From contig CAJVXS010000001.1 of assembly GCA_913009235.1 (NCBI GenBank), positions 186,001 through 250,000 of the forward strand: DNA of 64,000 nucleotides, in the 5' to 3' direction. This DNA is from an uncultured Methylophilaceae bacterium (GTDB lineage Bacteria > Pseudomonadota > Gammaproteobacteria > Burkholderiales > Methylophilaceae). Under the pieces are notes generated by a model, which saw nothing but the letters and a program-made list of their open reading frames with translations, did no database searches and was not told the DNA's origin. Below are positions 34,011 to 36,710 of this stretch, in pieces. The position numbers and the translations under genes were made by a program. Every line of letters begins with the position of its first letter. The stretch's first letter is position 1.

Positions 34011-34925
<915 letters not shown>

Positions 34926-34943: not shown

Positions 34944-36515
34944 TTAGAGCTTTTTCACAAACACTTTAGATTTTCTTTGTAAATTGTAAAGCGCTTGTTT
35001 AGATTTTGGCAGTTTTTCAAGTGCTAATAAGCTAAATCCGCGCTCTAAGAACCAATGTTCTGTCCGTGTGGTTAAGCAAAATAGCTTATTAAAGCCCAAT
35101 TTCTTCGCTTGCATTTGACAATAATTAAACAGTTTATCACCGCGGCCGCTACCTCTATATTGTGGATCAATGGCTAAGCAGGCAAGCTCTGCCATTTTGG
35201 CGTCAATATAAGTGTGTAATGAAGCGCAACCTATGATTCTACTGTCATGTTCCATGACATAAAAATGCTGAATATCCATTTCGATCTGCTCGCGCCCACG
35301 CCGGACTAAAATGCCTTGGTTTTCTAGTGGCTCAATCAGCATTAAAATACCACCTAGGTCATCAATGGTTGCTTGGCGCATGGCTTCTAATGGCAGTTCA
35401 GTCACCATGGTGCCAATGCCGCTAGCGGTAAATAGCTCTTGAATAATGGCACCATCGATATGCCTAGAGATTAAATGCGTCCGCGTCATGCCATCTTCGC
35501 TCGCTTTTGCTGCTGCATTTAAGTAATACTCAATATCTTCTGGAAAGTGTTTTGGCGCATCATTTTCATTAGCATTTTTAAGCAGATTTCTAGCTTTATG
35601 CGTTGTCATTTCCCGCAGGAGTTCACCGCGCAAGTTTTTAACACCACCGGTATCCATTAAGAAAATCAACTTCTCGGCTTGCAAAGCAATCGCTGCACTA
35701 GAAGCCACATTTTCTAGTGTTAAGTTGAACGTTTCACCGGTAGGGGAATAACCCACTGGTGAAAGCAAAACGAGCTCGCCATCATCCAGCCGCTTTTGGA
35801 TGCTGGCTGCATCAATTTTTCGGACTTCCCCTGTATGTTGTAAGTCCACACCATCAATCACACCTAATGGCTTTGCGGTGATAAAGTTACCACTAGCCAC
35901 ACGAATGTCAGAGCCTGCCATGGGCGAGTTTGCAATACCCATCGATAGTAATGCTTCTATTTCTACCCGCATGGATCCGTTAGCTTCTTTCACTGCTTCC
36001 ATAGCAGTATCGTCGGTAATGCGGAGGCCGTGATGGTAAGCAGGTTTTAAGTTCTCCCTAATTAACCGTTTCTCAACCTGTGGTCGCAAGCCATGCACAA
36101 GCACCAACCTGACATCGAGGCTAGCTAGCAGGTTGAGGTCGTGAGAAAGTGCAATGAATTGTTGCTCACTCACCACTTCACCACCAAAGGCAATGATAAA
36201 TGTCCGCCCTCTAAATGCATGGATATAAGGCGCAGCAGAACGGAACCAGTGCACAAAGTCCATGGGGTTCTCAAGTGGGGATTCGGTGGCGGCACCGACA
36301 ACGGTCGGGCTATCCGCATCGCTTTCAGTAAATAAGCTTGCTGGCGTGGTATTAAGCGCACTCGCAACCTTCCGAATTTGCACCTCAGAGATACCCATCT
36401 CACCACGTTCAATACGCGACAAATTTCCCGCATCAGACTCAATCGCTTTTGCGAGTGTATCCAAGGTCATTTTTGCGGCTAAACGACGATTTCGTATGAT
36501 GTTTCCGAGGAGCAT
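34944..36515 (-). CDS. argA: N-acetylglutamate synthase with N-terminal XRE helix-turn-helix domain
   Basis: ArgA makes N-acetylglutamate from glutamate and acetyl-CoA, the first step of arginine synthesis. Residues 89-370 are the amino-acid-kinase-like domain (FRGRTFIIAFGGEVV, LVLVHGLRPQVEKRL) that binds arginine in the family, and 378-523 are the GNAT domain with acetyl-CoA loop PQYRGSGRGDKL (451-462). Classical ArgA is about 440 residues; here 523. The extra first 64 residues are a Cro/CI-type helix-turn-helix (RRLAAKMTLDTLAKAIESDA, then NLSRIERGEMGIS). The frame is unbroken. An old start might be Met85 (36263). Palindromes upstream make self-regulation plausible. Confidence 0.92.
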   Translation of the reverse strand: MLLGNIIRNRRLAAKMTLDTLAKAIESDAGNLSRIERGEMGISEVQIRKVASALNTTPASLFTESDADSPTVVGAATESPLENPMDFVHWFRSAAPYIHAFRGRTFIIAFGGEVVSEQQFIALSHDLNLLASLDVRLVLVHGLRPQVEKRLIRENLKPAYHHGLRITDDTAMEAVKEANGSMRVEIEALLSMGIANSPMAGSDIRVASGNFITAKPLGVIDGVDLQHTGEVRKIDAASIQKRLDDGELVLLSPVGYSPTGETFNLTLENVASSAAIALQAEKLIFLMDTGGVKNLRGELLREMTTHKARNLLKNANENDAPKHFPEDIEYYLNAAAKASEDGMTRTHLISRHIDGAIIQELFTASGIGTMVTELPLEAMRQATIDDLGGILMLIEPLENQGILVRRGREQIEMDIQHFYVMEHDSRIIGCASLHTYIDAKMAELACLAIDPQYRGSGRGDKLFNYCQMQAKKLGFNKLFCLTTRTEHWFLERGFSLLALEKLPKSKQALYNLQRKSKVFVKKL

Positions 36516-36527
36516 GATGATAGTTTA

Positions 36528-36542
36528 TTGTAAATAATACAA
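36528..36542. promoter_or_regulatory. Candidate operator 1 upstream of argA
   Basis: The 15-base TTGTAAATAATACAA is a palindrome with five-base arms (TTGTA/TACAA) around AATAA. It begins 13 bases above the argA start. On the minus strand it contains TATTAT, a possible -10 box, so a bound protein would block transcription. It shares 13 of 15 bases with operator 2. Confidence 0.5.
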
Positions 36543-36557
36543 AATTTTAATAAACTT

Positions 36558-36572
36558 TTGTAAAAAAAACAA
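36558..36572. promoter_or_regulatory. Candidate operator 2 upstream of argA
   Basis: TTGTAAAAAAAACAA matches operator 1 in 13 of 15 positions, with the same TTGT-N7-ACAA frame. It lies exactly 30 bases from it, near three helical turns, which would put the two on one face of the DNA. The run of A lowers specificity, so chance cannot be excluded. Confidence 0.45.
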
Positions 36573-36688
36573 TATTTTTATTGCTTATGCTTATTTTACT
36601 TTGAAATAGCAAGGGAAATATATTTGTTTATACGGCGGAGTAAAATTAAAAAATCTAACAATCAAGCTGTTTACCAGCAAGATTACTG

Positions 36689-36703
36689 TTGCAAAAAAAA
36701 CAG
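36689..36703. promoter_or_regulatory. Candidate distal operator-like copy between rsmE and argA
   Basis: TTGCAAAAAAAACAG differs from operator 2 at two positions and lies inside a larger inverted repeat, TACTGTT-N8-AACAGTA (36684-36705). It is about 130 bases above operator 2 and just past the rsmE stop. It could also act as a weak hairpin at the rsmE end. Confidence 0.3.
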
Positions 36704-36710
36704 TATTTTT

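Follow-up and report, generated by a model that had tools for sequence, protein, structure and literature searches.

Gene and domain organization at the argA locus

The window, which is the whole 64,000-nucleotide stretch of DNA analyzed here from an uncultured Methylophilaceae bacterium, carries an argA gene that is read as a single uninterrupted frame of 523 codons (Table 1). No start codon other than its ATG occurs between the preceding stop and the segment encoding a helix-turn-helix (HTH). Pfam analysis of the gene product, referred to as HTH-ArgA, reports HTH_3 (PF01381) at residues 7-59 (28.5 bits for a cut-off of 23, E-value 1.6e-6), AA_kinase (PF00696) at residues 105-319, and a GNAT domain at residues ~411-494. 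NCBIfam assigns residues 83-523 to the amino-acid N-acetyltransferases (NF003641, 665.8 bits for a cut-off of 344), and TIGR01890 is also over its cut-off (571.8 bits vs 202.85). The protein is laid out as an XRE/HTH_3 domain, followed by a variable linker and a full-length classical N-acetylglutamate synthase (NAGS). The original prediction of an unbroken frame joining an HTH to a full-length NAGS is correct in its coordinates, strand, and frame, with both HTH_3 and NF003641 over cut-off, and the ~80 residues by which the protein was said to exceed classical ArgA agree with the 441 positions of the NF003641 profile, as compared with 523 residues here. Within the window's own genome (746,529 bases, a 48%-complete assembly), HTH-ArgA is the sole full-length match; the second match is argB, with 30% identity over residues 93-372, which is possibly co-transcribed with argA in the window.

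Table 1. Features of the argA locus, with positions counted along the forward strand of the window
Feature	Position	Strand	Basis
argA with N-terminal XRE/HTH_3, 523 residues	34944..36515	-	ORF and profile matches
HTH domain, residues 1-64	36324..36515	-	Pfam, AF2 model, residue-operator scan
Hypervariable linker, residues 65-86	36258..36323	-	Alignment and AF2 model
Amino-acid-kinase-like domain, residues 87-372; K282, E360, ELFTASGIGT (360-369)	35400..36257	-	Pfam, alignment
GNAT acetyltransferase domain, residues 380-523	34947..35378	-	Pfam, structure alignment
argB (acetylglutamate kinase), 45 bp downstream of argA, same strand	34011..34898	-	
Candidate operator dyad 1, ATTGTTTTTTTTACAAA, 10/12 to TTTGYA-N5-TRCAAA	36557..36573	-	
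Candidate operator dyad 2, TTTGTATTATTTACAAT, 11/12 to TTTGYA-N5-TRCAAA, directly downstream of putative -10	36527..36543	-	
Putative -10 hexamer TAAAAT	36544..36549	-	Sequence reading

The AF2 model of HTH-ArgA (58 sequences) has a mean pLDDT of 84.8. Its HTH domain comprises five helices (residues 2-13, 18-24, 29-36, 44-53, and 58-67; block pLDDT 83-88), the third of which is taken as the putative recognition helix, while residues 68-81 of the linker have a pLDDT below 50. The NAGS body of the model aligns with the arginine-bound gonococcal NAGS 3d2p (VIA Z 40.4, rmsd 2.3, 421 residues). The nearest solved HTH relatives by sequence are C.AhdI for the window's domain, the P22 c2 repressor for a related domain, and 434 Cro, all of which are stand-alone regulators, unlike HTH-ArgA. 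The catalytic and NAG-binding residues of Neisseria gonorrhoeae NAGS (ngNAGS) and its arginine-site motif are named in the available text of the NAGS family review PMC4490483. The arginine-site residues K282 and E360 (gonococcal K201 and E270) are kept in 81 of 81 relatives, as are the arginine motif E-(L/I)-(F/M)-(T/S)-x-x-G-x-G-T (here E-L-F-T-x-x-G-x-G-T) and the NAG-site/catalytic residues R406, E443, R514, and S516 (ngNAGS R316, E353, R425, and S427). The proposed general acid S392 of ngNAGS is replaced by T482, again in 81/81. By profile, by fold (3d2p), and by its arginine and NAG sites, the segment spanning residues 83-523 is a full member of the classical ArgA family (N. gonorrhoeae structures 3d2p and 2r8v), from which HTH-ArgA differs by the N-terminal extension carrying the XRE HTH. 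The words "DNA", "helix-turn-helix", and "transcription" are not used in the main text of PMC4490483.

The HTH is conserved in a manner distinct from that of the linker. The recognition-helix residues are the best conserved of the domain, N31, L32, S33, and E36 being invariant in 81/81 sequences and R34, I35, and R37 present in 98%, whereas in the linker the majority residue has a mean frequency of 0.29 (residues 64-86), and linker length varies as well. Median omega over 22 pairs of relatives is lowest in the kinase-like domain (0.014), followed by GNAT (0.034), the HTH (0.047), and the linker (0.069); these are rough figures, as saturated values were left out, the linker being affected most often. 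Judged by these ratios, purifying selection on the HTH is strong, and on the usual criteria of sequence comparison the domain would be a working part of the protein. Met85 was rejected as the true start, methionine being kept at this position in only 4 of the 81 relatives. An in-frame ATG occurs anywhere in the linker in 9/81, and any of ATG, GTG, or TTG in 61/81.

Distribution of the fusion and of ArgR

The genome set comprises 80 genomes of the order, 48 from Methylophilaceae (the window's included) and 32 from other families. The HTH, amino-acid-kinase, and GNAT architecture, for which the original prediction suggested a search, is encoded in frame in 47 of the 48 Methylophilaceae genomes (all 48 loci were read), and an HMM of this HTH returned no hit at argA in the 32 genomes of other families, one of which (locus L200) has just 171 bp before the contig end. 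In the window, neither a stop nor a frameshift lies between residues 64 and 85. In the 48th family genome (G036, locus L110; G036:C11:65500-69500), the HTH is present in another frame (HMM E-value 4.7e-35). A run of N separates the HTH from ArgA at this locus, where an assembly error and a recent break are indistinguishable. HTH_3 is over cut-off in four out of four divergent family members tested (35.7-44.0 bits). Only this single disrupted genome speaks for an artefact, in which a misread start or an assembly error would join an upstream HTH gene to argA. The same fusion is common to single-contig and draft genomes, isolates and MAGs alike, its start position is mostly conserved, and Met85 is rare; the artefact, refuted by the family-wide conservation of the fusion, has a negligible probability.

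Beyond these 80 genomes, the sampling consists of a second collection and of 369 genomes of the class. In the second collection, the HTH is found at 43 of 67 argA loci, the titles of which read Methylophilaceae, Methylophilales, Methylotenera, Methylophilus, or only Betaproteobacteria/Pseudomonadota. The remaining 24 loci match from residue 77 or later only, and none of them is titled Methylophilaceae, Methylophilales, Methylotenera, or Methylophilus. Of the single loci, L092 is titled as a Klebsiella pneumoniae MAG; its argA is 43% identical to the query and resembles loci of uncultured gammaproteobacteria (L091, L093), and the title may be wrong. The class-wide search with this protein gave matches in at least 310 of the 369 genomes and, among the matches listed, only the window's own gene begins before residue 51, the one beginning at residue 51 containing stops. 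The HTH-less set of argA loci is made up of 18 class loci (long upstream frames or early starts) and 56 others, and was scanned with the HMM of this HTH alone, which a different DNA-binding domain could escape; the N-terminal extensions of 32 loci were additionally read by eye. A query made of the 66-residue HTH (E-value ≤1e-5) matches argA only, in 24 of 25 family genomes (G019 lying below threshold). No donor gene for the HTH was found, the same query being without match in 16 other-family genomes at this threshold. The simplest account of this distribution is probably that the HTH was gained at the base of Methylophilaceae.

Regarding ArgR, an unrelated protein which controls arginine synthesis at the gene level, as HTH-ArgA would, the profile search reports no match over cut-off in the 80 genomes of the order, with two sub-threshold partial matches (G028 and G021). 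In the control search, 9 of 14 control genomes give a match, E. coli included, 8 of them over cut-off. The lack of ArgR matches over cut-off in the 80 genomes agrees with the available text of PMC5343134, which describes ArgR as conserved among many groups of gammaproteobacteria and as missing from other classes. Arg_repressor (PF01316) is absent from the Pfam matches of HTH-ArgA. Given that none is over cut-off in 80 genomes, ArgR was rejected as the regulator of argA.

Paired dyads upstream of argA and HTH residue 40

Two 17-bp dyads of consensus TTTGYA-N5-TRCAAA, mostly spaced 30 bp from start to start and flanking a -10-like hexamer, precede argA in Methylophilaceae, and this paired arrangement is new here. 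Both candidate dyads of the window are located within the 36516-36710 segment that the original prediction proposed as target DNA. The -10 column reads TAWWAT across the family loci. In the window, the left half of dyad 1, TTGTTT (36567-36572), is separated from the -10 by 17 bp and, taken as a -35, would be weak; the conservation of this half, which doubles as -35, may be partly that of the promoter. The proposed argA promoter is not among the predictions of the promoter scanner. With TAWWAT and the TTGYA of dyad 1 separated by 17 bp, the -35 would be covered by one dyad and the start point by the other, from which we infer a repressor's positions.

Dyads were scored in the 120 bp before argA against the mean of 20 shuffles. 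Of 83 family loci, 54 have one or more dyads scoring 10/12 or better (shuffles 8.3), and 29 have two such dyads at a distance of 28-36 bp (shuffles 0.05); no dyad of 10/12 is present at 29/83 loci, C-type operators (see below) being degenerate. Lowering the threshold to 9/12 yields a single dyad at 76/83 loci and a pair at 48/83 (shuffles 41.9 and 2.45, respectively). In contrast, HTH-less argA is preceded by a single dyad at 2/73 loci (shuffles 0.9) and by a pair at 0/73, a contrast weakened by the far GC-richer composition of these regions (mean AT 0.47 vs 0.70). Locus L179 is outside these 73 as it has too little upstream DNA. Taken before the match start of HTH-less argA, the counts are 2/74 single dyads and 0/74 pairs. 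Among HTH-less loci with an AT content of at least 60% (n=15), there is neither a single dyad nor a pair, and family loci of medium AT content (0.55-0.75) have a dyad in 32/57 cases and a pair in 15/57 (shuffles 5.6 and 0).

As the consensus had first been read by eye off the scored sequences themselves, a consensus-free test was run. Among 76 non-redundant loci, 27 contain perfect inverted repeats of 5 bp separated by a 5-bp spacer (shuffles 9.0, z 7.3), this spacer being the strongest of the 15 tested, and the odd spacers 3, 7, and 9 are raised too, matching the prediction for a longer palindrome. The evidence for the dyads is comparative, since single dyads are at chance level in the window alone (25 with at most two mismatches, 28 expected); the argA pair is the only one ~30 bp apart among these 25.

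The candidate operators are of a T type (TTGTA..TACAA) or of a C type (TTGC..GCAA, often degenerate). Eighty loci were scored, from which seven mixed ones were dropped (L007, L009, L014, L024, L030, L101, and L109); L067, L079, and L111 (truncated loci), L037 (too little upstream DNA), and L110 are unscored. Residue 40 of the HTH separates the operator classes in 73/73 scored loci (mutual information 1.0), a figure inflated by relatedness: L or M goes with the T type (34/34), and Q, I, or V with the C type (39/39). The next best of the 523 alignment columns, A159, reaches a mutual information of 0.72. The mixed operators occur with L40 (L007 and L009) and with Q40 (the other five). In the AF2 model, residue 40 follows the third helix (29-36), at a position that presumably contacts bases in controller proteins. 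In a tree built from the catalytic part (83 rows from the family plus 6 outgroups; a quick method with many weak forks), there are two changes of the Q vs L/M trait and three of the operator class. Both independent Q-to-L changes accompany matching operator changes (sign test p 0.5 for two pairs), and the third operator change is that of Methylophilus, with I or V at residue 40 and S at residue 30 in most. Because no other of the 523 columns does as well as residue 40, its match with the operators argues for a functional relationship. This co-variation is the strongest argument that the HTH reads the argA dyads, and residue 40 appears to set the operator type.

At the Methylophilus loci L040, L042, L045, L046, L050, L061, and L095, the right half-sites are mostly lost, and TTTGCA left halves are kept together with a -10 resembling TATTAT, as might be seen after a change in the mode of binding. 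The dropped Methylophilus locus L009 combines L40 with TTTGTA in dyad 2.

If the HTH has instead lost DNA binding and contributes to oligomerization or stability, the dyads would belong to another regulator. This would fit the out-of-frame HTH in one of the 48 genomes (L110), and the binding of the dyads by the HTH is a prediction from sequence. However, the run of N near the L110 shift means that the latter may be an assembly error, residue 40 tracks the operator type in every scored locus and does so best of all columns, the domain is best conserved at its recognition-helix residues, and no dyad pair precedes the HTH-less argA genes examined. A non-binding HTH is therefore very improbable.

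The T-type pattern TTGTAWWWWWTACAW occurs at one place, argA, in 6/6 genomes of the genus (four of them at least 86% complete), and the reversed-pattern control at one place each in G000, G003, and G004. Four genomes of two other genera (G043, G031, G041, and G026) have extra T-type places. These are in or at a coding region that we take from its translation to be metX/metW-like in G043, G031, and G041; in G026, one is between frames near presumed response-regulator-like genes and one inside a presumed receptor-like frame. A coding constraint is likely behind the metX/metW-region sites. At L144, L145, L151, and L153, a T-type dyad is found in the metX/metW-like region of three family genomes, L144 having two T-type sites 42 bp apart. 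The looser TTTGYA-N5-TRCAAA pattern has 1, 1, 7, 6, 5, and 3 places in G000, G003, G005, G023, G026, and G043, as compared with 2, 2, 0, 1, 1, and 2 for its reversed version, an excess in three genomes. Of these 23 places, 16 were examined: 15 are inside frames of at least 100 residues, and the sole intergenic one is that of argA. The strict pair pattern finds argA in G004 and G005, misses it in the other four genus genomes, the window's included, and matches G004 a second time, within a frame that resembles a ribosomal protein gene. The looser pair pattern matches argA alone in G019 and G037 and is without match in G017, G035, and G046. From these scans, argA is probably the main or only target, and there may be a small extra regulon, more so in C-type genomes.

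Proposed mechanism and relation to known systems

We propose, with a probability of roughly 0.74, that HTH-ArgA is an autoregulatory trigger enzyme, the HTH of which, probably gained at the family base, would bind the dyads of its own promoter and repress argA. A classical feedback-inhibited NAGS would have acquired an XRE-type HTH that binds one dyad over the -35 and another over the transcription start of the argA promoter, and the bound protein would repress argA and, in this genus, probably also argB behind it. The positions of the sites point to direct, repressing binding. If true, this would be a one-protein end-product control of arginine synthesis at two levels. Of the one-protein feedback switch put forward in the original prediction, the gene-level half gains strong support of a comparative kind from the dyad pair, the residue 40 match, and the single T-type place in six genus genomes, and the enzyme-level half rests on the intact arginine and catalytic residues.

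Arginine would be the co-effector, acting via the mobile N-terminal helix joined to the HTH (residues 84-93 in the AF2 model). According to the available text of PMC4490483, arginine moves the N-terminal helix of gonococcal NAGS, the N-terminal helices of neighboring subunits interlace, and the arginine-bound hexamer contracts by ~20 Å along its axis while the ring widens by ~10 Å. As the HTH is joined to the helix that arginine moves, arginine could set the arrangement of HTH pairs, and by analogy with the gonococcal structures an arginine control of DNA binding is plausible. Tentatively, and at somewhat less than even odds, the arginine shift of the NAGS ring would be used twice, shutting the acetyltransferase and setting the paired HTHs, with the arginine-bound ring clamping two operators ~30 bp (about three turns) apart. 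If so, one allosteric event would amount to both enzyme inhibition and gene repression, in a lineage without ArgR.

Two other modes of repression have to be weighed. HTH-ArgA may be a simple autorepressor, self-limiting by protein concentration, in which the linker decouples the two halves and no arginine signal reaches DNA binding. The linker is indeed hypervariable in sequence and length, with low pLDDT at residues 68-81, and the target is apparently mainly argA, as pure autoregulation predicts. However, the HTH adjoins the N-terminal helix, which in gonococcal NAGS is displaced by arginine (PMC4490483, available text), and genomes without ArgR would be making strange use of a ready sensor if any effect of arginine were lost. 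This makes the option unlikely, if the most serious of the competing ones. Trigger enzymes act as transcription factors in the absence of their substrates, according to the available text of PMC8249747, and HTH-ArgA could behave as PutA does, binding DNA when idle and leaving it when glutamate or acetyl-CoA is bound, so that repression follows the enzyme state and not arginine. Such behavior is less likely still, as it is the N-terminal end, responsive to arginine, that carries the HTH, and the GNAT active site is distant from it in the sequence.

Proteins that are both enzyme and DNA-binding regulator are already known as a kind. In the E. coli trigger enzymes BirA, NadR, and PutA, both functions reside in one chain (PMC8249747, available text); these differ from HTH-ArgA by enzyme and pathway, and in the latter the sensor would be a feedback-inhibited ring enzyme, with argA as its seemingly main target. 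An N-terminal XRE HTH fused to a metabolic-kinase-like domain is known in BoxR/BzdR of Betaproteobacteria, which, in the available text of PMC6449761, are benzoate-pathway repressors with a shikimate-kinase-like domain. HTH-ArgA instead combines an amino-acid-kinase fold with a GNAT domain, its catalytic residues being kept, and no shikimate-kinase-like domain is found in it, NF006015 covering residues 3-71 only (20 bits for a cut-off of 204). No published description of an HTH-NAGS fusion was found in open-access full texts, subscription journals and preprints being outside this search, in keeping with the original prediction, which knew of no described ArgA of this type. The system can be tested directly: the allosteric ring and the effector site are known, a candidate operator pair has been mapped, and one HTH residue is linked to the operator type.

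The fusion is kept across the family, including genomes of ~1.3 Mb, in an order in which ArgR was not found (80 genomes).

Lastly, two loci, L115 (G037) and L116 (G019), belong to a reduced-genome lineage with an ArgA of ~40% identity and a very long branch. Despite this divergence, both retain the HTH, the arginine motif, and the argA dyad pair, the dyads being 42 bp apart and not 30.
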